Origin: Diphasiastrum complanatum
Lineage: Eukaryota > Streptophyta > Lycopodiopsida > Lycopodiales > Lycopodiaceae
Reading direction: 5' to 3'
Length of the DNA stretch: 64,000 nucleotides
Assembly: GCA_029204225.1 (NCBI GenBank)
Contig: CM055095.1
Location: forward strand, 66,675,940 to 66,739,939
Numbering within the stretch: the first letter of the stretch is position 1; every line of letters starts with the position of its first letter. A program made the translations under genes and the position numbers. The notes beneath the pieces were generated by a model, which was not told where the DNA came from, did no database searches, and saw only the letters and a program-made list of their open reading frames with translations. This document shows positions 4,069-61,189 of this stretch, one piece after another.

Positions 4069-5408
4069 GTTGGAAATTAAGCCCATAGTTGTCTCCTTGG
4101 TGAATGACTAACTTCTATTTCATGATTCTTCTTGCACGTTTATTGATCATTGATCTAGGGTCAGGTGAAACCAACTTTGGTTCTACGTCTGCTCGTCTGA
4201 TACTTGCAGTAATCACAAACTTAGATAGGCAATTTATTTGAAGAACGTCAACAACGACTGGTCTCCAGCAAAGGGTAAACAATCTTGCCATAATTTTAAG
4301 TTCAGATGTTAAGTTCAATTACTTGAAGTCATTGAAGACTTGGACATCTTCAAGGACTTCCATGAAATTAGCATTTAGAACAAGTTTGCAGAAATACATT
4401 ACTTTCGTGACCGTCTGCAAAAATACTCTAAGTGTCGTGACAGTCTGCAGAAATAAACTATGTTTTCCACTGTGTCGGCTTTTTCGCATTTCTCCGAAAT
4501 GCGAAACTAGCATAGTTCAACAGTTCAAACTATTTTGCAACAGCTTCATCTTTTTCGCATTTCCTCGAAATGTGACACTTAGGCACAGTTCCAAGTTCAA
4601 CTATTTTTTAACACCTTCGGCTTTTTCGTGAAATGAGAAGAGAGAGAAAATTCTCGAAGGTCATCTACTTCAAGACTTGAACTGTTTTAGGGCACCTTCA
4701 ACTTTTTCGCAAAAAATTTTAAGAGAGAGAAAAAGTGAAGGTCGTCTATTTTGAACGAAGGACGTTTCCAACCACTTCCCCTAAAAATGAAGTGAGAGAA
4801 TTTTCGACGTCCTCATTCGAGTCAACATTTTCTGATTCGTTGACCGTATATATCATGTATAGTTGTCACAAGCCAAATACTTCCAAGTACAACGGCTTAT
4901 CTAATTAGGTGACAAATATGTAATGTAGTTAATACATGGATGCAATCTATAAATAGATCATCCCAATACAGATTACTCGAGAGGCTCCGTCCATGAGATG
5001 AATGATTTTGAGCCTCCCAGTTACGCCGTCATTCTGGTTGTAACTACTATTTTATTGTGCTTCAGTGTAATATAGCAACAGCATGCTTTTCTATTTGTGT
5101 ATAACGTAGATGAATGCTTGTTGTGATTGAATGCACTTTGTTGTTGTTTGATAACATTTGTTCACTCACTCTGATCAGAACACGGACGTCTACGACTCCT
5201 CAATTTCTGATCAAACGATGGTTGTCTTTGACGCTTGAGGAACTTGCATTATCACACTGTTATTTCAATCTATTTCAAAACTAAACTTCATATTGAATCT
5301 GATTTCCAGTAATACCCCACACACACAAACCTTTTCTAATCTCTTTGGTGGATTGTACTCTCTTTTTGTGAGTATGAACTAATTTTTAAGATCCTGTTGG
5401 GCAACTAG
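4069..5408 (+). repeat. 3' LTR of element D, first segment
   Basis: It begins TGTTGGAAATTAAGCCCATAG and aligns to the 5' LTR until 'GGGCAACTAG', where element C is inserted. The remainder resumes at 10153. Rejoining the two segments (minus one 5-bp duplicate) gives an LTR of about 1.49 kb. Confidence 0.88.
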
Positions 5409-22229: not shown

Positions 22230-22728
22230 CCATACACAATCTACTATCCAATCACAAGCAAAAAATGATCAAAATTAATGAAAAATTGATCTAATTTGGT
22301 GCATAAGTCAAGATCCAAGATTTTTTTATATTCAAAAGATAGAATTTTCTTATATTGTATCGACTCGAAAAATCTGTGATTTTTATTGTCATTGTAATTT
22401 TTCGAGTCAGTGTATATTTTTTGAGTCTTTGTTATTTTTCGAGTCTTTGTAAATTTTCGATACTGTCATAAATCTGACCCATGTCGCGACGTTGATAGTC
22501 CGCCTACTTCTGTACACAACTCTCTGGCAAAAATGACGGCCACCTACTGCAGAAAAAATGTATTTAATTAAGTAGGTTAACCAAGTACTGATCATCTGAC
22601 TTCCAATCATCAAGGAAGATCTACTGAAGTCAACAGTCTGATCAGGTTATCATCCTGCAAGCATTATACTGAAAATAGTCAAGTTGTAGTTTTTGAAGTA
22701 GGTTCATCAATGAGCTCAGCTGAAGACA
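22230..22728 (+). repeat. Presumed 5' LTR region of copia element G
   Basis: The end is set by the primer site at 22729. The start was not found. It contains repeated 'tttttcgagtct(t/c)tgt' units at 22380-22455. The terminal 'agtcaagttgtagttttt...ttcatcaatga' recurs at 33120-33160. Confidence 0.5.
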
Positions 22729-22740
22729 TGGTATCAGAGC
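22729..22740 (+). promoter_or_regulatory. Primer binding site of element G (tRNA-Met)
   Basis: TGGTATCAGAGC directly follows the LTR end CTGAAGACA. Confidence 0.8.
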
Positions 22741-22871
22741 GGGTGGCTTAGTAATCTGCATATTTATTGCAGGTTATCAGTCTTGTTTTTACCAAGATCT
22801 CATTTCAGCAAGCGCAGCCAACAGTTTCTCAATATCATTGTTTCTATCAACGATCTCGCTACAATACCAGA

Positions 22872-24815
22872 ATGGATTCTACTTCTAGTTCTTCTCTAAT
22901 TGACAAGCTCGATGGAGAGAACTACTTGTGGAAGTCCAAGATGAAGGTTGTTCTACTAGCCAAGGAACTGTGGGACATAGTTAATGGTACCGAAATCAAG
23001 TCAGAGAATGATGTAGCTAGCATCATCAAATGGAGGCAACGAGATGGCAAGGCTTTTGCCTTAATCACTCTGAATATCAGAGACTCTCAAATCAGTCATA
23101 TCCGATCTGCACAGACTGCTAAGGATGCTTGGGACATCCTAGCAACTCTCTATGACATCAAAGATGTCACTTCCAAATTACATCTGAGGAAGAAATTCTT
23201 CACACTCAGAATGTCTGATGCAGACACCATTTCTAGCCATCTCAACACATTCAAAAACCTCATGGAGCAAATGATTGAAACAAGATCGGACATTGAAGAT
23301 TCAGATGCAGTAATGACTTTTTTATCGAGTCTCCTTGAAGCCTATGAATCATGGGTCATGGCTATTTCAACTCAGCAGCAACTTACTCTATCAAGACTCA
23401 TTTCTATGTTGTTACAAGAGGAAATAAGAAGGAATGCAACCTCCTCAGGCTCAGGATCGAATTCCATTGCTCTACACACAACCAAAAATCAGAAAAATCA
23501 GGAGAGATCTCCAAAGTCATATTTTTCTGACAGAAAGAGCAACTTGTAGTCTAGGTCAAATTTTGACTCTGGGTCAAAGTTTTACTCAAGGTCAAATTTT
23601 GGCTCAGCATCAAATTCGAATTTTTCTTCATCATTCCAGCCAAAGCAAAACATGTTTTACAAATACTGTAAGGGGACTGGTCATCTCATCAAGGACTGCA
23701 GAACACTCAAGTACAACAATGAAAAGAAGATGCAGTCCCAACTCAATCAGTTACTCGATCCAGCATGAAGAGGAAGATGAAGCTGCATTTTTAACCAAAA
23801 TCGAAGAACAACATAATATCGATTCTTGGTATCTGGATTCGAGTGCAACACAGCACATGACTCACCATCGAGACTGGTTCCATGACTACAAGTCATACAC
23901 CCATTCTAGAGTTGTGAAACTTGGAGACAACTCAACTCATTCCATTGAGGATGAAGGAATAATCAGGATCGAATTCCAGAAATGTGATGTAATATTTTTG
24001 TCCAATGTTCTTCAGATTCCAAATCTGACCAAAAACCTACTCTCAGTTAGCAAAATCACAGATTCAGGTCAGAGGGTTGAATTCGATAGACAAGGCTGCA
24101 CTATTCTTGACGAATCTAGGAAAGTTTTTGCTTTCAGTAAAAGGTGTGGCAATTTGTACAAACTCAGTCACTCCTATTCTACAAGTAGTCAAGCTCTTTT
24201 TACTACTACTACTGATTCAAATGATATGTTATGGCATCATAGATTAGGCCAATTAAATTTCAGTTGTATTCAGCAAATGTCGAATCAAAACTTAGTACAA
24301 GATTTACCTTTCATTAGCAAATCTGATACTCCATGTAAAAGCTGTATTTCTAGCAAGCTTGTTAGAAGTTCAATCATTTCAGATTCAGAATGTATTTCTA
24401 GAAATTTGCTAGATCTTGTACACTTGGACATTTGTGGTCTTATGCAGACTATTTCCACAGGAGGAGCTGTTTATTTGCTGACTATTAATGATGACTCACC
24501 TCAGTCCAATGGTGTAGCTAAATGGAAGACTCATTCACTCATTGAAAGTGCAAGGAGCATGTTGGCCCATGCATCTCTTCCAAAGAAGTTCTGGGCAAAA
24601 GCTGTTACTACAGCATCCTACATTCAAAATCGATCCATTTCAGAGGCCCTAAATGACAAGACACCTTATGAGGTGTGGACAAGATCGAAGCCATCACTCA
24701 ACCATATCAGAGTGTTTGGATGTTTGCTTTCATTCAGATCACTACTGATCTCAAGAAAAATCTGACTCGAGGATCGAACAATCAAAATCCGATCCAGGGT
24801 CGACTTTTATTGGCT
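22872..24815 (+). pseudogene. Copia element G gag-protease-integrase, 3' truncated
   Basis: Gag is nearly complete from ATG 22872 (MDSTSSSSLIDKLDGENY) to a stop at 23549, with the UBN2-type 'LWDIVNG' and 'LRKKFFTLRMSD' blocks. The zinc knuckle near 23653 has lost its first cysteine (Y-KY-C-KGTG-H-LIKD-C). The protease reads WYLDSSATQHM, DSSA where DSGA is usual. The integrase keeps the HHCC part (LWHHRLGQ ... CKSC) and 'VHLDICG'. After 'TINDDS' it jumps to 'PQSNGVAKWKTHSLIESARSML', so the second catalytic Asp is deleted. Similarity to copia ends around the FIGYS block at 24800-24820. RT and RNase H are absent. Confidence 0.85.
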
Positions 24816-24828
24816 ATTCCTCAGACCA

Positions 24829-25862
24829 TTAGACAAACAAGCTCTTCAATCTGACTCATGGCGCTAACTCTAAACACCCTTGTTTGTACTGCATGAAAAC
24901 AGCAAAAGACATGACAAGGAGTACATGAATATCAAGAGATCGAGAAGATCCTAATTGGAAACCTGTACTACCGATTCCTCTACGAAATGTTCATATCTGT
25001 ACATTGCATGCGGAGATGCGTATTATAGAAAAAATAATATATCTTCACATCTTGTTTGCATGGAATTCCAAGCCAGAGGCCTCTGCAAAGGAAGCTATTT
25101 CCAGATTAGAGGATGTATTGTCCAAAGCAGGCTTACATAAAGGCCACGTTAAAATAAAAAAAGATGACAAGTTATCAGGTATAATAGGAAATATTCCATG
25201 CAAGCCGAGCATTGGAGGATCTAAAGCTCGAAGATTTTTATCAAATTATTCTGGCAAACAATCTAAGGTTCAATACACGGTTTGGAAAGAAATTACTGCA
25301 GCAACTCAAGATTTCGAAGAAGAAGGTTCTACTCGTATACACAAAGTAGAAGTTTGGAAAAAGTTAGACAACATGGTGAAATACTTGAGAAAAGATAAAT
25401 TTTCAAATACTGATGTTCAAATGATACAGAAAACAACCAATGAATTTGTGGATGCAGTTCAGAGTGCATGGGGTGTTGATCATATAACACATTATATGGT
25501 GAGATTTTGATTATACACTACGATAGACAAATATGTGCAATTAAATTAGATACTTTTAGTATTGATTTACATTATGTTTTTATAACATGCAGCACATATT
25601 ACTACATCATTCGACATTCTTTGCAAGAAATAGTGGAAGTCTTAGCATATGGTCATTGCAAGGAATGAAAAAATCTCATTGGCAAGCAAGAGCGGCATTT
25701 CATGAAAGTACACAACATGGTGGGACTAGCACAAAAAATAGCTATATACTACAACTTTTTCAATGGTTTTACAGAAGAATCCAAATTCGTCATAATACAA
25801 AATTGACGGATTATAAAAAATTTCAAAAAGCATGCAAATTTATACAAGCCAGTAGGCTATAG
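24829..25862 (+). pseudogene. Transposon-associated protein of unknown function (gene 1 of the block)
   Basis: The readable protein starts after the copia junction with a CxxC segment (HPCLYC, 24875-24892). An in-frame TGA lies at 24926, then comes 190 open codons with 'LPIPLRNVHICTLHAEMRI', then a 94-bp intron (25499-25592, GTGAGA...TGCAG), and a second exon reading HILLHHSTFFARNSGSLSI, 'SLQGMKKSHWQARAAFHESTQHGG' and a Trp/Tyr/Arg-rich end. From memory, this order (CxxC; 'LHA-MRI-EK'; 'HYMHILLHH...GS...S-QG-EK') resembles large uncharacterised proteins common in invertebrate and some plant genomes. Biochemical function is unknown. The N-terminus is missing. Confidence 0.45.
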
Positions 25863-25922
25863 ACACACAATAAAATTTTGTATATTAAATAAAAATATTT
25901 ACAAAGTACAATTCAGCGGTAT

Positions 25923-27311
25923 CTAATCTACTTCTGATATTTTTTCCAATGAAAGTTGCAACTTAGAATCATGCAACAATTTTCTTCTTTTGTATGGATC
26001 CAATAGCTCATAGTTTTCATGCTTACTCAGATCAACGTAAGCAGCATACACTGCAAAATGAGATGATCTGAACATGGAATTCACTGGTCCATATCCTAAA
26101 ATTTTAACCGCAATAGTTTTCTTTACAAAAATTATTTTATGCACCTTATTAAAATTATGTCCTCCAAGAAAATGAGACAGTGCCTTAATTGTCACAATCA
26201 TAGTTTCACCATGTTGATGAAACTTTGAATGGGCAACACTTATCTCATAATTCATGAAGGACTTTAGATAGTGCCCGAGTGCATGATCTCTTGAAAATTC
26301 TCCCGCAGAAGATCTTTGCCCTCCTCGACGAATTGCGAAATCATCAAGGAAAATTGTTTCTTGAAATGATAAAAAACAAAGTAAGCTCCAATATATAAGC
26401 TGACATAACAAATCTAACAGTACTTGATAAGAGACAAAAACTTGCGCATTCGGCTTTGTCTTCTCTGATTACTATCTCTCCATCAATATTATGTCCAAAT
26501 TTTGATGTCAATATTGCTGGTGAATAGACAGTTGGCTGTGGAAAACCAAGTTGACTTTGGATTCTAAGAAACTCCTCCTCAGAAGGTAGATCATCTTCTT
26601 TGTTGCGCATTTCCTCCACGGCCATTTTCAAGCAATCTTTCCCTCAATAAAACTTATCATTATGTACATCATCAACACCAGGGAGAAGATCATCAACATC
26701 AAAATCAATTATATCCGAAAATTCATCAAGCTCTTTGCTCAAAATGCAAAGAGTCTCAGCTTCAGTGAAGTCAAAAAGATTCGATATATCCGATATTGTA
26801 AAAAAGAAGTTATTATCTATATTATAAGTAGGCAAAGTGATCAAAGATTTATCAGAAGGAGAAAGGGTAGTGGATGTTCTAGAGCCTATAAAAGTAGCCC
26901 TATTTCGAACATGATCAAAATCAGAACAATCATCTAAATTCACACTCGTGTCAATAAAAAAAGTATCTATATCTACAATCTTTGACTTTTCAGACTTTGT
27001 ACCACTAGAAGAAGCTGCTTCAGAAGTGGAGGGCACAGAGTCCGAATTGTCAGAAATATTTAACAAAAAAAAAAAAAAACAGCAGACTGAAAATCAACAA
27101 ATCTACATTTTTTATTATGAATTGGGCACTCATCTACAGACTTGAAATCATTATGCAACTTGGTAAACATTCTGTCAAGCTTAGCTTTGTAGATATGCTT
27201 GTCGAGTGCCACTAGGTCCTCATACTGAATCGTGTCTTTATTCTGAGACCTGAATAACGTAGTACTGAGCAGGGACTTAAATCTGAGATATATCTCAGAA
27301 AATACCTCCAC
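25923..27311 (-). pseudogene. Acidic hypothetical protein, broken (gene 2 of the block)
   Basis: It is read from ATG 27311 (MEVFSEIYLRFKSLL). The frame shifts at a T-run on the minus strand (27063-27079), then continues as a Ser/Asp-rich acidic segment (27066-26647), passes an in-frame TGA at 26644-26646, and goes on with 'MAVEEMRNKEDDLPSEEEF'. A frame change or intron near 26430 leads to a C-terminal segment with 'FSRDHALGHYLKSFM' and 'YELLDPYKRRKLLH', ending at 25923. I do not recognise the family. It converges on gene 1 (60 bp between stops) and diverges from gene 3. Confidence 0.4.
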
Positions 27312-27402
27312 ACCAGGGCCTCAGTTATAGAAGGTAGAATAAAAAGAAAAGGAGAAAGAAGGGTCATCATTATCAGTCCAACCTATCAGTAATACCAAAT
27401 TC

Positions 27403-28553
27403 ATTAAAAAAAGAAAGCAAACTGGATTCAAAATTAGACATTTTAAACAAAAATAATAGAACTGAAGTTTCAAATATCGCTCTCAGGCGCAAACCCCAGG
27501 TCAGACAAGCACATCAAGGCAACATGCGCTCGAGAGAGATATTGGAAGCTGGAGTATCGGATCCGAGCGTAAGAACAACGAGCAGGAAAGAAAAGAGATA
27601 CGAAACGCGCTTGAATGTGATACCGGGGGATGCAGTATCAGATCCAGGCGCATAATAGTCAACAAGACGTAATGAGAGCAAGCGGCGCGCTTGAAATCGA
27701 TATCCGGCAAAGTAATCGTAAATTTGCGTGAAAATCCGAGCCGAAAAAGACCTATTTATATAAACAATTTCGCACGTGTGGAGGAGTGGCGAAGGAACAC
27801 GTGTCGACATGTGATTGGCCAAAATAAATGTGTCCTATCTTGAATGATTAATCTAACATCTGTCACGTGCGAGAATGACACGCGTCGATAAGGGATTCGC
27901 GCACGTGTCTCAGCCCACGTGTCCCCATAATTGGGTCATCATTATCAGTACGGACATTCCACGTGGTCTAGTCATCTGACGACACGTGTCTCGACCGTCT
28001 TTTCACACGTGTAAAAATTTGTGAAAATTTATTAAAAAAAGAAAGCAAACGACAAGCACGTCAAATCAACGTGCGCTCGAGAGAGATATTTGAAGTTGGA
28101 GTATCGTCCGAGCGCAAGAACAACGAGAAGAACAGACGCGCTGGAATGCGATACCGGACGATGCAGTATCGGATCCAGGCGCATAATAGCCAACGAGATG
28201 TAATGAGAGCAAGCGGCGCGCTTGAAATCGATATCCGGCAAAGCAATCATGAATTTGCGTGAAAATCCAAGTCCAAAAAGACATATTTATAAAAAAAAAG
28301 ATCGCACGTGTGGATGAGTGGCGAAGGAACACGTGTCGACTTGTGATTGGCCAAATTAAATGCGTCGTACCTAGTATGATTGATCTGACATCTGTCACGT
28401 GCAAGAATGATGCGCGTCGATTAGGGATTCGCGCACGTGTCTCAGCCCACGTGGCCTCATAATTGGGTCATCATTGTCAGTATGGACATTGCACGTGGTC
28501 TAATCATCTGACGACACGTGTCTCGATCGTCTTTTCACACGTGCAAAAATTTT
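27403..28553. repeat. Tandem ~0.54-kb duplication rich in CACGTG
   Basis: Two copies share 'attaaaaaaagaaagcaaac' (27403 and 28031), 'cgctcgagagagatatt' (27529 and 28076) and 'cttttcacacgtg' at their ends (offset 532-547 bp). Each holds eight CACGTG sites. Copy 1 has them at 27773, 27798, 27864, 27902, 27916, 27960, 27983 and 28006; copy 2 at 28305, 28330, 28396, 28434, 28448, 28492, 28515 and 28538. CACGTG with ACGTGT flanks is the plant G-box/ABRE core bound by bZIP and bHLH factors. The block lies between divergent genes 2 and 3 and is probably their shared promoter. Confidence 0.75.
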
Positions 28554-28554
28554 G

Positions 28555-28564
28555 TATATATAAG
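28555..28564 (+). promoter_or_regulatory. TATA-like box upstream of gene 3
   Basis: TATATATAAG lies 17 bp after the last CACGTG and about 310 bp before the proposed start codon. Similar AT boxes occur at matching places in the repeat copies (27752 and 28283). Confidence 0.45.
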
Positions 28565-28875
28565 TTCTCGAAATTTTCATTTTTTTTCGCAAAATTTTTG
28601 CTTTTAGCTCCCGATATCGCTCTCAAGCGCGCTCTTTTATCTTTCAAGCTTCAGCCCTTTCACAGTGCGTTCGAGTCCGATACCGCCTGCTGTGCAATAT
28701 CGCTTTCGAGCGCGCATCTCTTTTCTGCAAATAATCTTTGTAGATCTTGCGCGCATCTCTTTTTAGTAAATAATCTTTGTAGATCTCAAGCGCCCTTTCA
28801 TCGCAAATTTTTTTGTTTTGATCCACTTTTGTTTTGTTCAAACTTCTTTTTGTTAATTTTCTTCTTCCGAGAATG

Positions 28876-30976
28876 ATGGCCAGGACCAAATCCATCGCCC
28901 GTGTCATCACCACTGTACAGCCATCCCATTCTCGTATTCCCCCTGGTACTGGCCGTAGGCGTGGCAAAAAGCAGGTCTGGCTGAGGGAGATCAGGAAACT
29001 CCAAAGATCAATTGAATTGTTGATCCATAGATCTCCTTTCGGCCAATCTGTACGGAATGTCACTCTGTCACTTGGGCTGGATGTTCATTTTGTCGTGACA
29101 GCCATGCAAGCCTTGCAGGGTGCTGCAGAAGATTTTTTGTCCCAGTTTTTTAAGGATACTTGTCTTTTGGCAATGCATGGTAAGCGTGTCACCATCATGC
29201 CAAAGGATTTCGTCATTCTCAAAAGGCTTCGGGACAAATATTCTGGTCTGCATGTTGATAATGCCAACACCTCCAGAGACTTGCCTCTGGATAGAACCAA
29301 CGTGCCTACTACCTCTAGGAGGAAGAGAAAGCAGGCTGTCCCCAAGAAGGCGGGATCTCGAAGGCCAGCTGCTTCCCTTCCTCCTAGACGTATCCCGGCC
29401 AAGAGACCCCGTGTCTTCCTGAGCTCTGAGTCAAATGCTGGAGAATCTGACTCAAATCGAGAATCTTCACCCAGTCATCCTCCTGTTATTCGTCTAGTTC
29501 CTCAGCAGGTTTCATCACCAAAAGTGTTGATTACCCAAGAGGAGCTAGACAAAATAACAGAGAAATCTATAAATATTCTTTCCACTTCTGTTTCTGCTCC
29601 TGTACATAATGTTTTTGTGAGAATTCCATACGATCCAGCCCAGGTTTTTTTTTTATTTTGACCATTATAATCAATACGAGGCCTACCTAGCTAACAAAAT
29701 TGATCTTCTCGGCAAGTTTTTTTATTTTTTTCTTCCAGTTATGCATAGAAGCTTTAGATTAGGTCCCAAATTTTGTGCCGAGCTAAAAGATAAGACCTCA
29801 GAAATTTCAAATGCAATAGTAGAGGCTAGAGTTTCTTTTTGCAGAATAGTATTAGTTTCGATTCCCATGGTACAGTTTTTGTAGTTAGTCCATTTTTCAT
29901 GAGAGCGGTAAAGGCGAAAGAAGCCAATTTTGAGAAGGCTGTCTATTTTATCGAGTGCAGTCCTATGGTGAAATTTTTGATTCCATATGAAAATAAGTAA
30001 GGATTGTTCTTTTGTTTTTGTTGCTTTAATCTGGATTGTTGCATGCCTCGCTGCTTTAATAAGAACGGAATTTTTTCATAAATATGAATTTAACGATATT
30101 TGTATCTTGGTTGTTGCAGTCGGCATTGGAGCCTAAACATTCTTTTTGTAAAGATAAATAAGGAGGGAGTATCAAATTTTCTATGTGTAAAATTAAACTC
30201 AGCTGCAAATACACATAGAGAATTTGATTCTCTACTTTATGATGTCGTTCGGGAAATACCGACAACGGCAACTTCAATTGGAGATATAACCATTAAATAT
30301 CTCAAGGTATATTCAATCTATCTCTGATATGCATGTATTTCTTTTTTAATTCAAATGTATCGTCATAGCATAAATAAAATTTCTATTATAATATTACTAA
30401 TTTTCGTTCTATATATGCAGTGTGTACATCAAAATGACGCTTTTAGTTGTGCATGGTTCGTCCTGTACAATACGAAGCTATTTTTTGAATGGTATAATTT
30501 ACAAACGGATGTAGATATTGAGAAGGTAATATTTTATTCATTTGTAGTTCATTTCATTCTGATTCATATTTTATTACTATCATTGTTTGTAATTTGCTGA
30601 TTCACGTGTTTTGTGATGACAGTTCACTCTTGAGTTGTATACTCCTGATGATGTATATAGATTTCGGCAAGAGTTGATCAGAACTTTTGCCCAGTACAAT
30701 GTAAGCGTTGCACCTGCAATCGAGGGCCCTCAAAAGGAAGCTGCTCTCGTCTTAATAGCCTTTCAGATTGTTCAGGTAGCAGATCTTATTTTATATGATC
30801 AAAAAGGAATAAAAGTCCTTCCTAATACAGAGGAAGGCAATTTTGTAGCAGATATTCCTCTTGCCTTAAAAGGCATTGAGGCCCTTCCCGAAATTGAGGA
30901 GGGCGAGATTATAGGAGCTGTTGCTTTATCAGTTCCTAACACTGATATAGAAAATATAAAAAAATTGATTGAATAG
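28876..30976 (+). pseudogene. Histone H3-fold / Ulp1-like cysteine protease fusion gene
   Basis: The start ATG is at 28876 (an ATG also at 28873) and gives an H3-like tail, MARTKSIAR. Residues 34-122 form a histone H3 fold: WLREIRKLQRSIELLI, VTAMQALQGAAEDFL, KRVTIMPKDF. Loop 1 has the canonical H3 length. A basic linker (RRKRKQAVPKK) and a Ser-rich spacer follow. After a frame disruption at the T10 run (29645) and another near 29840, exon 1 continues to 29996 with 'VFVVSPFFMRAV' and 'KFLIPYEN'. Exons 30120-30306, 30421-30525 and 30623-30976 supply an Ulp1/C48-type core: HW (30124-30129), Asn in the usual Asp position (LNS, 30196), and Q-x5-C (Gln 30430, Cys 30448). Family members cleave SUMO or related modifiers. 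Both halves are recognisable, but the two frame breaks leave function doubtful. Confidence 0.65.
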
Positions 30977-31167
30977 AGATCTATTTGTAAATAGAGAGAC
31001 ATAAAAAAAAAAAGATTCAATCATTTTACTTATAAACGACCCGTTTGTGGGGTTTTTTATTGATATCACAATAGATCTTACAATCAGCTTGTGTCCATAG
31101 TCTAATAATGGAATGCAATTTTTCTATAATGATAAAAATATTGGCATGTATTTGCTGATAGTGAATC

Positions 31168-32338
31168 TCAATGTTCTTCCATAAGTTGGATTGTTTCGCC
31201 AATATCTCTGCATTTGATCTCGAACTCGTGTCTTTTACGTACCTGCATAAAACTAATATAAAGATAGTTAGAATTAGTACAGAGTTTGTATTAGAAAGTT
31301 TTGATTGAAACTATTCATAAAAGATCGAGTGTTTACAGTTACTTACGAGTTTACCATTGAAAATGAATCTGAAGTCTGAAAGTACATCATCTTGTAGGAG
31401 CAATAGTTCCCGCCGAATGTAGTTTAGACTCCAATCCTCTTCTACCTCAACACATGTCAAAACGGCATCATTGTTTATAAATTTAATATTTTTTCATTTT
31501 AAATGTCCACTGGCTTCCAAGTCTTGATCGAGTGGCACCCATTTACCTTTATTTTTTTTTCATCTTTGATAATGGAAGCATAAGCTCAACATTTGTTTTT
31601 CAATTTGATAAAGGAAGCACATGGAAGACATTTTAATTCTGCATTCTATTTCTCCATCTGATCTTTTGTCCCAGCCTTCATCCATAAGTTCAAATAATAA
31701 ACTATCTGATAAATTTTTGCATACAAACATCATTGGGGTTTTGTGTACATTGACACTTGAAAAGAAATTCAAAAATATATTCAAGGAAATAAACCAACTC
31801 AATCTGATTGTTTTTTATCTCGTGCTCATTTTTAATGAATTTTTTACATCATTATATATCTTGCAATGAAATGATTCTGAAACTGTAGCATCTGGTGCAA
31901 TCCATTCATCACTTTCAAAGCTAGGTAATGGAATTGGTACTATTTGTCCAAAATTTTCTTTTGTATCAGGAATGTACATTGATTCATAAAAAAAAAATTC
32001 ACTATCAACTAGATTTTTTGCAGTTCTACCTCGATATTACAGTTGTCCAATATCAGTGTGAATAACATCTAACAGGCCTGCTAAAAATCTACTCGGCTCC
32101 CATTTATTTATGTTGGATGGATATAAATCTGCAAGAGAAAAATGATCAGATTGGTAAGTTTACTATTAGATATTTATGAATGACAAAAATCAAAGTATCA
32201 AAAATATTAATACTCACAGTTGTTTTTTTTGTGATCCTGACGGTTGAATCCTTGCACATTTATCTCTGAATGCATATATACATGTTGGACTAGAATTCCA
32301 GAAATAGATTTTTCTCCTAATGATGTTTTGAAATCCAA
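31168..32338 (-). pseudogene. Hypothetical gene 4 of the block, 5' cut by copia
   Basis: Minus-strand exons with clean introns: 32129-32217 (89 bp) and 31243-31346 (104 bp). The peptide reads ...VYMHSEINVQGFNRQDHKKNN | YLYPSNINKWEPSRFLAGLL..., then broken text, then TCVEVEEDWSLNYIRREL...DFRFIFNGKL | VRKRHEFEIKCRDIG and a TGA at 31170-31168. In-frame stops (for example after DIGQL) show decay. The last 60 residues alternate like a ubiquitin-type beta-grasp ('DFRF..NG..V..RHE'), which is only a guess. Upstream of 32338 the sequence becomes copia RT, so the start is lost. It converges on gene 3 with 191 bp between stops. Confidence 0.4.
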
Positions 32339-32546
32339 AATTTTGGCCTTCCAATAAGATCGAAATGATAGTTTTGACCTTTTCCTTGATGAAGCCCTCG
32401 GGTTGTCTCATGAAGATCTCCTCTTTCCAATAGCCATTTTGAAAGGCATTAATCACATCAAGCTGAAAAAGAGTTTTCGATATGCTCCTCTTGATGATGG
32501 ATGCATCAAAACCCAATAGTTGTTTGAATATTTTCTTGGCACCCAT
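32339..32546 (-). pseudogene. Copia reverse transcriptase fragment
   Basis: The minus strand reads 'LFQLDVINAFQNGYWKEEIF' and 'MRQPEGFIKE', the conserved RT block. It is joined directly to gene 4 at about 32338, which marks an insertion or deletion junction. Confidence 0.75.
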
Positions 32547-33114
32547 AATCCATTATCATCTGTCTCGTTGAATAGAAGCACAGAGTCGATTGAGGAGCAC
32601 AGCTTCCTTGATGGCGCCATTCATAATTTGCATGCAAAAATCTGAAACAATGAACTATGAATCTGAAAATCTGCATAGACAAAAAGCCATGAATCTGAAA
32701 AAAAGTGTTGGCAAAAATTTGAAACACTGATCTATTTGGCGCCACAAATTAACTCTGGTTATCCTTGTTAACGATGGTTTGACAATGCATATACATTAAT
32801 GGTACATCGATTTTCTCATCTCAATCATCTGTCATATTCATTTTCAATATTTTTGGGTCTCTTCAGGCAGTGATGAGCTGGAAGGGCAGGCCTCATCAAC
32901 CAATAGCATTTCCACATACTGCCCGACAAAACAACAATATATTTAAAAAGTTTTTATTTTATTTATATTTGGAAAATTCTGCGTTATGTAAAACCCCAAA
33001 GCTAAGGTTTCAATTGGTCCACATGGCAACGAAAATAAGAAAAATAAATAAAAAAGCATCTTTTTCAAAGGCCCTCGTCGGGCTCTAAGTTTCTCTAATG
33101 CTTGAAGATCTAAA

Positions 33115-33178
33115 AATTAAATAGTCAAGTTGTAGTTTTTTAAGAAAGTTCATCAATGAACTCATCTGAAGCTGTGTT
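33115..33178 (+). repeat. Remnant of element G LTR end
   Basis: 'aatagtcaagttgtagttttt...ttcatcaatgaactca' matches 22676-22724. It may mark the far side of the original G element, which would place the four-gene block inside G. Confidence 0.5.
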
Positions 33179-33484
33179 TTTTAGTGCCTACTGATTTGCT
33201 CTTAGCTTCAAGCCATTGTACACAGTTTTGATTATTATCAAAGTGCATTTTGTGTCTACACTGCTATTCTGTTCTATTGTGGTGTAGTTACTCGATCCAT
33301 CTTGAACTTTGCTTTGCTGGTAACTGCTGCACTTCCGATCCACTACACCACACATGCTCTCCACTTCCGCTGCAAATCTCCACATTTTCACTGATCTCTG
33401 ACTTGATATCAGAGAGTCTATTTCTATCATATCTCTATTATTCTTATATCAGTTGCCCATATCTGAATCCACTGATTTTCTACA

Positions 33485-33496
33485 TGGTGTCAGAGC
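33485..33496 (+). promoter_or_regulatory. Primer-binding-site-like sequence of a lost LTR element
   Basis: TGGTGTCAGAGC (one change from the usual copia site) follows TTTTCTACA, a plausible LTR end. The following DNA is minus-strand copia, so the element it served is gone. Confidence 0.5.
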
Positions 33497-33499
33497 TCA

Positions 33500-35002
33500 G
33501 CTCTCTGATCCTGTAGATTTACGACACTTCAAGTAGCAAACTTTGTCTTCATCTCCTTGCTTGATGAAGCCCTCGGGTTGCAGCATGTAGATGTCTTCTT
33601 CCAAGAATCCATTTAGGAAAGCATTAGTCACATCAAGTTGGAAAAGCTCCCATTTGAAAGAAGTAGCAAGACAAATGATCATTCTTATAGTGACAAGCTT
33701 AGCAACAGGAGCAAAAGTTTCATCATAATTATGCCTTTAGTTTGCAAAAAACTTTTTGCTACAAGCCTTGCTTTGTACTTATTAATGGATCCATCTTTAT
33801 TGTACTTCAATATATAAATTCACTTACAAGAAAGTGGTTTCTTCCCATATGGAAGATTCACAAGTTCCCAAGTCTGATTTTCTATCAAAGCATCAAACTC
33901 AACTTGCATAACATTTTTCCAAGATTGTGACTTCAAAACAAGATGGCTCTTCAAGCATAGTGGTCAAGAAAGTGTAGGAAGTAAATAGGATGAATGTCTT
34001 CCCTTTGCTTGCTCTTCTCAATACAGGTGAGCCTAGATGGCTCGGCCTTGTCCCTTGTAGACCTCCTTGGCCTTCTCGAATCCTCAGATATCGTCCTCAA
34101 AGTCTTTATCATCTTGAAGCTTCTCCTCGGCCTTTTCAAGATCTTTGACAACATGTGAGTGAGATGAGCTCTCATTCACTTTGGCATAATGAGATTCATC
34201 AAAGAGTACATCCCTACTTACTTTAACTTTCTTATAAATAGGATCATAGATCCTATATCCCTTGCTACAATCACTATAGCCAAGAAAAATGTCGTTAAAT
34301 GAAGTAGCATCTTCTTTCTTCCTTACTTCTAAAGAAATATGGACATAACAAATACATCCAAAGACTTTCAAATCTTTCAAATTTGGCTTTATGCCATACA
34401 AAGCTTCAAATGGTGTGATTTCACCAATGGCATAAAAAATTTGCATATGTAATAGCTTTTTCCCTAAAAAGAAATGGGTAGAGAGGCATCTAATCTCAAA
34501 GCTTTAGCTTATTCACACAAAGATCTATTCTTTCTCTTGGCCACAAGCACAAGTTCATTATCTTGGATTTCATCTCCAATTGAAGCCAATTCTTTGTTCA
34601 AAGATTTGATCCTAAGCACATACTATTGTGCACTCTCTCCACGTCCTTTCATGTTTTGAAGCACTTGATTTCTTAGCATGAGTATCCTTGAAGTGTTATT
34701 GGATTCATAAATGCCTTTTAATGAATTCCAAGCCTCCTTGGCTGAGATACAAGATGACACCTCTTTCAAGAGGTCATTGCTCACATTCATTTTGATGCAA
34801 TGTCAGGCCAATCTAGCCTTTCTCTTTTGTATCTAGCTTGCTCTCGTCCACCAAGAGGTTCATCTTCCTCATCTAGGACAATGTCAAAGAGATCATGGAG
34901 CACCAAAAGTGATTCCATTCTCACTTTCCAAATGGAATAATCAGTGGTAGTGAGACTCTCATTGGCTTCTAGCAAAAATCTACCCATGGATGAGTCAATC
35001 AA
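33500..35002 (-). pseudogene. Copia element H: gag-integrase-RT remnant
   Basis: Read right to left. Gag N-terminus (MGRFLLEANESLTTTDYSIW, start 34989). A decayed gag middle ('LMLRNQVLQNMKG') jumps near 34550 to the integrase C-terminus ('ALRLDASLP') and 34084-34446 ('TPFEALYGIKPNLKDLKVFG'). The connecting region and RT follow to 33530 ('LFQLDVTNAFLNGFLEED', 'MLQPEGFIKQG'). Protease, the integrase core and RNase H are missing. Its gag is close to that of element E at 61914, so both belong to one lineage. Confidence 0.82.
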
Positions 35003-59097: not shown

Positions 59098-61189
59098 TGT
59101 CAAGCATAAATTTCATATCCATTGTATATAGATTTCATTTGAGTCAAATGTCAAATCTCCTAAATTGTAGGAGTTATCTCCTAGATTGTAAGAATCTAGA
59201 AGGTCAAAACTAGCCACCAATGATGATGTGGCAAATTAGTGGAATCTTAGCCAAAGTGGATATTATTAGAAATTAAGCCCACACTTGTCTCCTTGGTGAA
59301 TGACTAATTTCTATTTCATAATTATTCCTGCACATTTATTAATCATTGATCTAGGGTGAGGTGAAACCAACTTTGATTCTACGTCTGCTCATCTGATACC
59401 TGCAGGAATCACAAACTTAGACAACCAATTTATTTGAAGAACGTCTACAACGGGCTTCTGCCTAATCTCCAACAAAAAGTAACCAATCTTGTCATAATTT
59501 CAAATTCATATGTTAAATTCAATTACTTGAAGTCATTGAAGACTTGGCCATCTTCAAGGACTTCCAAGAACTAGCATTTAGAACAAGTCTACAGATTTAC
59601 ATTACTTTTTCAACAGTCTGCAGAAATACACCAAGTGTCGCAACAGTCTGCAAAAATACACCAAGTGTCGCACAATTCGCATTTTTCGCATTTCCTCGTG
59701 ATGCGACACTTGCACAGTTCAAAAGTTTAACTTGTGTAGTTCAAAAGTTAAACTGTTTTTAACACCTTCGGCTTTCTCGCATTTTTTCGAAAAATGCGAA
59801 GAGAGAGAAAATTCTCGAAGATCATCTATTTTCATGAGTTAAACTGTTTTAAAGACATCTTCGCCTTTCTTAGGGCACCTTCGCCTTTTTAAGGGCACCT
59901 TCGACTTTTTTGCAAAATCCTGAAAAGAGAGAAAATGTCGAAGGTCGTCTATTTTGAACAAGGAACGTTCCCAGTCACTTCCCGAAATTTGCGAAGTGAG
60001 AGAAAACCACTTCACGTAAAATGCGAAGTGAGAGAATTTGCAACGTCCTCGTCCGCGTCAACATTCCCTTATTTGTTGACCGTATATACTATGTACAATT
60101 GTCACAAAAGCCAAATACTTCCAAGTACAATGGCTTACCTAATTAGGTGACAAACATTTACTGTAATTAATACATGGATGAAATCTATAAATGGATCACC
60201 TAGGCACACTCTATGAGACACTCCGTCCATGAGACGTATTATTTAAGCCTCCCAGTTACGCCTCATTTTGGTTGTAATTGTTATTTTACTGTGCTTCAGT
60301 GTAATATAACAGCAGCATGCTTTTCTATTTGTGTATAACGTAGATGAATGCTTGTTGTGATTAAATGCACTTTATCGTTGTTTGATCGCACTTGTTTACT
60401 CACTCTGATCAAAACACGGACATCTACAACTCCTCAGTTTCTTATTAGACGATGGTTGTCTTTGACGCCTAGGAACTTGCGCTATCACACTGCTATTTCA
60501 ATCTATTTCAGAACTAAACTTCATATTGAATCTAATTTTTAGTAATACCATAACAAACCATTTGTAATCTCTTCGATGGACTATACTCTCGTTTTTGTGA
60601 GTATGAACTAATTTTTAAGATCTTGTTGGGCAATTAGAATACTTAAAGCTGTGATTATATATAGCATAAGCTTTCTATTAGACTGTTTTTGCATCTAGTG
60701 GCTGATTGTAACGGGAGAGTTCCGCAATATTCATGCTCTCTTCTCCGTTCGCGTTCTTCTATCTCTCTTGCCCCATCAGATATGGATAAGCACTATGAGC
60801 TATCTCACACGTGCTGGATATGGCTTACAGAAAGATTATGAAGATTTTGTATATCATCCATGTGAGATCCATTTTAAGATTAATGATGATAAACATTGAT
60901 TTGGGAGCAATCTTGTTGATTTCAACTCTCTATGCATGTTCTTTGTGAATGAATGTTTAGGATCTGATAAGTAAACACATTTGCTATTAGCAGGCTGTAC
61001 ACTTGCTATACTTCACACGTGTGAAGCCTGTTGATCATTATCTTTGATTGTTCTTGCTTGGATGTGTAGAAATTGTCAAGTAGAAGCTAGATTTAGATGC
61101 TAGTTTGAAGATATCTAGATCAACATACCAAGTTCACTCTTATCGATCTTTTGTAGATCTATTTGAGTCCTATTTTCTGATTTTTGACA
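59098..61189 (+). repeat. 5' LTR of copia element E, interrupted by a D solo LTR
   Basis: The end is fixed by the primer site at 61190. The start is inferred from TGTCAA (59098) mirroring the terminal TTGACA. Without the solo LTR the unit is about 0.57 kb. It carries CACACGTG(T/C) boxes at its start and around 60808 and 61015. Confidence 0.65.
59264..60778 (+). repeat. Solo LTR of family D
   Basis: A 1515-bp full-length copy runs TATTAGAAATTAAGCCC to CTTGCCCCATCA. The flanks are a perfect 5-bp target duplication GATAT (59259-59263 and 60779-60783). No interior is present, so LTR-LTR recombination removed the body. It lies in the LTR of element E. Confidence 0.9.

Follow-up and report, generated by a model that had tools for sequence, protein, structure and literature searches.

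A decayed lycophyte DNA transposon carrying a histone H3 gene followed by Ulp1/C48-like exons, with a tentative role in anti-silencing

Introduction

The described systems that come closest to the locus reported here are the VANDAL and KIU (Kaonashi) elements of Arabidopsis, with similar Ulp1 sequences present in MULEs of melon, rice and grapevine (PMC13317346). VANC proteins attach to tandemly repeated noncoding sequence of the elements that encode them and cause silent marks to be lost (PMC10398659). KIU elements add an Ulp1 domain; what such domains do in plant transposons is, according to the same source, unknown (PMC13317346). On the histone side, the divergent H3 variants encoded by plant HTR genes combine a histone fold with a degenerate N-terminal tail and substitutions at K4, K9 and K27, and the main text describing them uses neither the word "fusion" nor the word "protease" (PMC4357034). 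An Ulp1-type protease is also mentioned in conjunction with two other eukaryotic DNA transposons, Ginger and Crypton (PMC2836005, PMC3212892). These two have a different recombinase from that of the element studied here. To our knowledge neither of them has a histone gene, and we know of no transposon encoding histone H3 together with a protease, on the basis of protein database searches and of literature searches in which no histone–Ulp1 or histone–transposon case was among the matches listed.

Here we describe such an arrangement within a 64,000-nucleotide stretch of the Diphasiastrum complanatum genome, hereafter the window, to which all positions refer. Like the VANDAL/KIU non-TIR MULEs, the element in the window is a multi-gene plant DNA transposon with one Ulp1-like gene and a tandem-repeated noncoding region. 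Unlike them it has inverted ends, a lycophyte host, a gene A that lacks a Pfam transposase match, and a protease-like part encoded by one gene together with an H3 histone that precedes it. Of the features that characterize VANDAL/KIU MULEs it thereby lacks the non-TIR ends, and no MULE transposase profile was matched in the frames scanned. The H3-bearing gene, gene C, resembles the divergent HTR genes in its histone fold, degenerate tail and altered lysines, but those are described as host genes (PMC4357034) whereas gene C is transposon-borne and has a protease-like part. Finally, it shares with the Ulp1/SENP proteases (PF02902) the order of H, Q and C and a weak profile match, and differs from them in scoring below the curated cut-off, in having N in place of D, in lacking GxDCG and in giving no solved-structure match. 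The best explanation overall, to which we give a rough probability of 0.37, is a decayed four-gene transposon whose H3–linker–C48 gene would act in anti-silencing.

Results

The DNA of positions 28556-30976 was used as a query against the species' own 1.74-Gb genome, which gave at least 47 rows with the window included, a lower bound in which some rows are fragments of one copy, the others being 86 to 94% identical to the query. For further analyses we aligned 20 rows, namely the window and 19 loci spanning most of the query (L005-L022 and L024), with ten partial loci (L023 and L025-L033) left out; the row counts given below refer to this alignment. The right end of the element, at window position 33100 (...CTAATG), was common to 11 copies with 10 different flanks (the window, L005/L035, L011, L029, L037, L039, L052, L054, L055, L056 and L059), with L005 and L011 having one and the same right flank, and L035, L037 and L039 matched the window to 33100-33101 and then diverged. 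On the other side L034, L036 and L038 extended past 24842, and the left end could be located in three copies (L038, L046 and L047). The window copy is without its left part, comprising the left end and the N-terminal part of gene A, and has copia-like sequence instead. In the L012 copy (L038 and L039; C23:13866266-13876322), having a length of 10,057 bp, the ends were inverted repeats with 36 of 45 columns alike in this one aligned copy, while no target-site duplication was evident by eye in the three end pairs L038/L039, L046/L056 and L047/L011. An alternative left end at L034:3323 / L038:2707 was rejected since L034 is left-truncated; the flanks of L034/L035 rejoin a copia frame.

That this is a mobile unit, as had been proposed from a first reading of the letters alone (the sequence-only reading), is shown by its dispersed copies, by a right end that stays the same while the flanks differ, and by the inverted terminal repeats. 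The DNA transposon, of which the window holds a decayed copy, has four genes, inverted repeats at its ends and a length of about 10.06 kb, and that the H3 gene resides inside it is close to certain. The features are collected in Table 1.

Table 1. Features of the transposon remnant, in window coordinates
Feature	Position	Strand	Remarks
Transposon remnant	24842..33100		Multi-gene DNA transposon copy
Gene A, C-terminal part, P0122-like	24842..25859	+	One intron near 25505-25592
Gene B (or two genes)	25926..27446	-	Divergent from gene C; several exons; ORFs
Two-way promoter-like region between genes B and C	27501..28580		
Gene C (H3 and C48-like parts)	28876..30976	+	Histone match, exon model, copy alignment
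Gene C coding parts	28876-29643, probably 29644-29996, 30120-30306, 30421-30525, 30623-30976	+	
Gene C, H3 tail and histone fold	28876..29247	+	K4 present, K9 lost, K27- and K36-bearing stretches deleted
Gene C, linker	29248..29643	+	Basic, Ser/Pro-rich, evolving fast
Gene C, stretch between two frame changes	29644..29844	+	Coding in the next exon's frame, or GT..AG intron
Gene C, C48-like core	29845..30525	+	H309 (HW), N333, Q373, C379 in 521-aa model numbering
Gene D	31314..32036	-	Convergent with gene C; ORFs
Copia-like stretch, 86 nt	32388..32473		Skipped by copies reaching there
Right terminal inverted repeat	33057..33100	+	Ends ...TTTCTCTAATG

Pieces of a copia-like retrotransposon at 22673-24840 and 32200-35000 flank and interrupt the element, and just after 22725 there is a TGGTATCAGAGC motif that we take to be primer-binding-site-like. 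The window also contains three copies of a long dispersed repeat (1-1411, 4113-5393 and 59308-60737), which resemble one another at 77-90%. Two loci appear as rearranged derivatives of the element, with gene A sequence located beside the promoter in L010 and fused to the inside of gene C in L027.

Gene A is called a putative transposase because of its place and size only. The protein P0122 (706 aa) matched gene A over 24842-25504 in tblastn (40%, 235 aa, E 8e-49), and the gene was fuller in L036 (35%, 417 aa, E 1.6e-78 against P0122) and also in L034 and L038. Neither P0122 nor gene A gave a Pfam match above the cut-off, with no MULE profile in P0122 or in five of the six frames of the window between 24 and 36 kb, and the predicted structure of gene A had a pLDDT of 36 (AlphaFold2). 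No Pfam match was obtained for genes B and D either, of which four pieces of the former were present in L034, L036 and L038, and three pieces of the latter in L037 and L039. Gene B changes frame at a T15 run (A15 on the + strand, 27065-27079), which could be decay, slippage or a homopolymer error of the assembly.

The promoter-like region between genes B and C consists of a duplicated unit of about 530 bp, with copies 87% alike, and contains 16 CACGTG boxes compared to 0.22 expected (two or fewer in 1000 shuffles). One TATA-like site was found per strand, at 27762 (-) and 28555 (+). At a distance of 58 nt from each there is a GATATCG..TCAAGCGCGC motif, which has four matches in the window with none expected, and the leader at 28581-28872 is without ATG. 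In the 1.1 kb upstream of 20 copies, the CACGTG count ranged from 1 to 16 with a median of 7, compared to a background of 0.53 per 1.1 kb for the window overall.

Gene C starts with M(M)ARTK at 28873/28876, and its histone fold terminates with KRVTIMPKDF. In the window copy this part matched the Pfam Histone profile PF00125 (E 9.7e-23) and a plant H3.1 in the PDB (E 1.5e-19) over 89 ungapped residues, of which 44 were identical to plant H3. It is followed by a linker (residues 126-230) with 21 K/R versus 11 D/E. The ARTK start, the H3 fold and the basic linker of the sequence-only reading were hence all recovered. The longer loop 1 that distinguishes CENH3 from H3 was absent, as gene C aligned with H3.1 over the 89 residues without a gap. 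When the H3 part was used as a protein query, the six inspected matches were tandem ordinary-H3 models, the inspection being drawn from the best 120 of 4127 matches; the predicted structure of the H3 part alone had a pLDDT of 40 (AlphaFold2), which, like that of gene A, is too low for the model to be of use.

The tail is shortened in the window copy, where ARTK is retained and the stretches with K27 and K36 are deleted. Across the alignment no row has Lys at position 9, where 18 of 20 have Ala and the other two Val. At position 4 there is Lys in 18 rows and Arg in two; L017 has a frame shift within the tail. In the window copy, the set of K4, K9, K27 and K36 that makes up the canonical modifiable H3 tail is thereby reduced to K4. 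Within the fold, the window copy retains R49, R52, K53, R72, F84, K115 and T118 as well as the H3–H3' interface residues H113, R116 and D123, while R63, R69 and R83 are altered.

These features could also be explained by an H3 part that works as a chaperone decoy, sequestering H4 or histone chaperones, or as a DNA-packaging coat in transposition, with the C48-like part having a peptide-binding or processing role and with silencing marks being irrelevant. Such a function would agree with retention of the H3–H3' residues in a window copy where the DNA contacts R63, R69 and R83 have been altered, and with shortening of the entire modifiable tail, beyond K9 alone. A pure decoy should however have no need of K4, which is retained in 18 of 20 rows, and at two of the altered DNA contacts Arg is common in the alignment, being present at R69 in every row except the window and at R83 in 14 of 20. 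We therefore regard a decoy or packaging function as unlikely, even though it is the alternative that survives best.

The C-terminal part of gene C is encoded by exon 29845-29996 and the three exons that follow it in Table 1, linked through three GT-AG introns. The intron places are common to the copies, because the splice dinucleotides are mostly kept (in 17, 16, 19, 20, 15 and 18 of the 20 rows), though single copies have lost sites. As had been noted from the sequence alone, the exons present HW and Q-x5-C in the order of Ulp1/C48 proteases, here as H309, Q373 and C379, with the Cys codon present in all 20 rows and HW in 17. The residue at the expected position of the catalytic Asp, as placed by eye, is N333, and DCG appears as SCA, so the catalytic H-D-C triad plus Q of C48 is found with N in place of D.

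The exon-joined models gave a strong Pfam match for the histone and a weaker one for the protease. Peptidase_C48 (PF02902) matched the C-terminal exons with E 0.0024 and three models of the window gene with E 0.0018-0.0066 (0.0066 for the 521-aa model), the window scores of 16.8-18.6 bits lying below the Pfam gathering cut-off of 20.7. It was the sole Pfam family outside the histone fold at E<=0.01 in these models, it was matched in all three copies having open exons (best E 0.00076), and four composition shuffles of gene C gave no match at E<=1. In a search restricted to three loci, a host Ulp1-type exon (L002) matched residues 284-321, including HW (32%, 38 aa, E 0.002), whereas in a pairwise alignment with human SENP1 the H was paired, and Q and C were misplaced. 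A PF02902 scan of the genome, with 150 of 520 candidates scored, found three other loci with the gene C family absent, searches of solved structures with the C-terminal part matched no C48 structure, and an NCBIfam search gave nothing meaningful. Host genes of C48 type, as named by resemblance, include a SENP8-like open frame (L001) and the Ulp1-type exon (L002). From this sequence evidence we judge that the C-terminal part of gene C is likely homologous to C48, with the domain being a candidate protease. The deSUMOylase activity that had been suggested earlier would be a tentative assignment, given the score below the curated cut-off and a third catalytic residue that looks like N, as would chromatin targeting and control of host chromatin.

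With the linker and C-terminal part as a protein query, P0121, a chimeric Diphasiastrum complanatum gene model, was the only match. The C-terminus of P0121 corresponds to part of the last exon of gene C (76%, 71 aa), beginning at most one residue from the start of that exon in the window, and a piece of the element thus appears to be joined to this annotated host gene model.

A wholly open gene C frame was found in none of the 20 rows, with the H3 frame of the window (261 codons) being the longest. Substitutions were assigned to a tree of 15 rows, after removal of the near-identical L007, L011, L017, L021 and L022. On internal branches these small, parsimony-based counts were 20N:16S for H3 (dN/dS about 0.47), 13N:12S for the C48 core (0.35), 29N:9S for the linker (1.29), 5N:3S for the middle stretch and 21N:3S for the last exon (2.5). 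Terminal dN/dS values were 0.77 for H3, 1.57 for the linker, 2.85 for the middle stretch (70N:8S), 0.81 for C48 and 1.29 for the last exon. Together, H3 and C48 had relatively fewer amino-acid changes than the linker and last exon on internal (Fisher p 0.002) as well as terminal branches (p 0.001), and the internal H3 and C48 counts differed from the expected silent-site share with p 0.02 and 0.01. Decaying copies should differ little between gene parts on terminal branches; the contrast was equally strong there, and therefore base composition, rather than selection, may explain part of it. The pattern as a whole would fit a gene C under selection during the active period of the element and in decay from then on.

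Could gene C instead be a passenger, with host H3 and protease-like sequences having been captured as in Pack-type elements and then drifting unused? All 20 aligned copies being broken, and terminal-branch dN/dS values reaching 0.77-2.85 depending on the part, would suit such a capture. It is harder to reconcile with an H3 that is about half diverged and yet retains both fold and open frame in the window copy, with the low internal-branch ratios of H3 (0.47) and C48 (0.35), for which the terminal-branch caveat applies, and with a promoter-like region with TATA that is common to genes B and C. We accordingly find an unused passenger unlikely, and slightly more so than a decoy.

Two frame changes at T-runs separate the H3 frame from the C48-like exons, as the sequence-only reading had stated, with decay or sequence error as its suggested causes. 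That suggestion suits the second, which occurs in the window alone among the 20 aligned rows and where a sequencing error therefore is possible. At the first T-run, ten rows including the window share the form where the H3 frame ends with ...VFFLF* (at 29661 in the window), and since this form is common to half of the rows a sequencing error is unlikely there; it also turns up in each of the tree's three main branches and is therefore probably old. Three further rows have base changes at equal length and two are otherwise shifted, while five (L005, L006, L007, L010 and L011) cross the first T-run in frame, with L005 alone being open across both places into exon 29845-29996.

The stretch in between, 29644-29844, is open for 66 codons, which was equalled in 18 of 1000 shuffles, and in all rows but the window its frame continues into the exon that follows, with a stop in one of 20. 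Its codon usage was exon-like to a degree reached in none of 2000 shuffles (6 and 110 of 2000 for control exons), and introns 2-4 were all negative. The stretch also has GT..AG ends, its excision preserves the frame, and the AG is present in 14 of 20 rows. It may be coding, as favoured by the open frame, the codon usage and the run into the next exon, or an intron, as favoured by the splice-like ends and by the run-length variation. The intron reading was first dropped because of the exon-like usage and the copies, and was then reopened since ten of the 20 copies end the unspliced H3 frame. The frames could be joined either by splicing of 29644-29844 or by slippage at the T-run, with an H3-plus-linker product without protease possible alongside.

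The earlier proposal of an H3–C48 fusion gene stands as regards an apparent single transcription unit. No copy is wholly open and 15 of 20 H3 frames do not get past the first T-run, and because of this census we lowered our estimate for one continuous polypeptide from near certainty to a clear likelihood. If instead this part of the transposon gave rise to two proteins, one being H3 plus linker ending at the first T-run and the other a separate C48-like protein, then the early end of the window frame at 29661, identical in ten of the 20 rows, would be the natural end of the former. No second promoter was seen by eye in the approximately 180 nt between the parts, however, and the open exon-like frame ahead of exon 29845 extends back to the T-run, which five rows cross in frame, and where the splice-like ends of 29644-29844 would join the frames. 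Separate proteins are hence improbable in our view, and we keep to a single H3–linker–C48 gene. Even less plausible, to the point of being very nearly dismissed, is the viral origin that had also been raised, here taken as what an endogenous large DNA virus with a histone gene would have left behind. Although some viruses carry histones and the genes are tightly packed in convergent and divergent orientations, neither the H3 part nor gene A, each scanned once against IMG/VR, gave a relative, and the locus has GT..AG intron-like gaps and forms a 10-kb unit with inverted repeats.

Discussion

Hosts silence transposons largely through H3 lysine 9 and DNA methylation. By analogy with VANC and KIU, we tentatively suggest that gene C is an anti-silencing gene, like these in role and unlike them in sequence, which is the likeliest of the roles considered although less probable than not. 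The proposal starts from the H3 fold, the loss of K9 in 20 of 20 rows, the protease-like exons that lie downstream on the same strand, with the frame open in between, and the mobility of the element; the joining step, nucleosome entry, proteolysis and the effect on silencing are what we infer.

In the mechanism that we envisage, the gene C protein would comprise an H3-like histone, a basic linker and a C48-like domain, joined by splicing or by T-run slippage. Its H3 module would pair with host H4 and enter, or compete for, chromatin at the element, with a tail that would be open to K4 marks and without K9, K27 and K36 to take silencing marks, and the C48-like module might strip or bind SUMO-like modifiers on nearby silencing factors. 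The most specific version, in which a K9-less H3 linked to a domain like that of SUMO proteases takes the place of host H3 on the element, whose chromatin would then resist silencing by K9 methylation, with the protease disarming SUMO-dependent silencing factors, we consider doubtful, with odds clearly lower than for an anti-silencing role as such.

If this reading is true, the transposon would counter host silencing directly at the molecular level, through a K9-less H3 and a protease-like domain of its own. This would open a new approach to the escape of mobile DNA from silencing, and histone genes would join the list of genes captured by transposons. The link of a histone to an Ulp1-like domain, finally, hints at a chromatin role for the Ulp1 domains in plant transposons.
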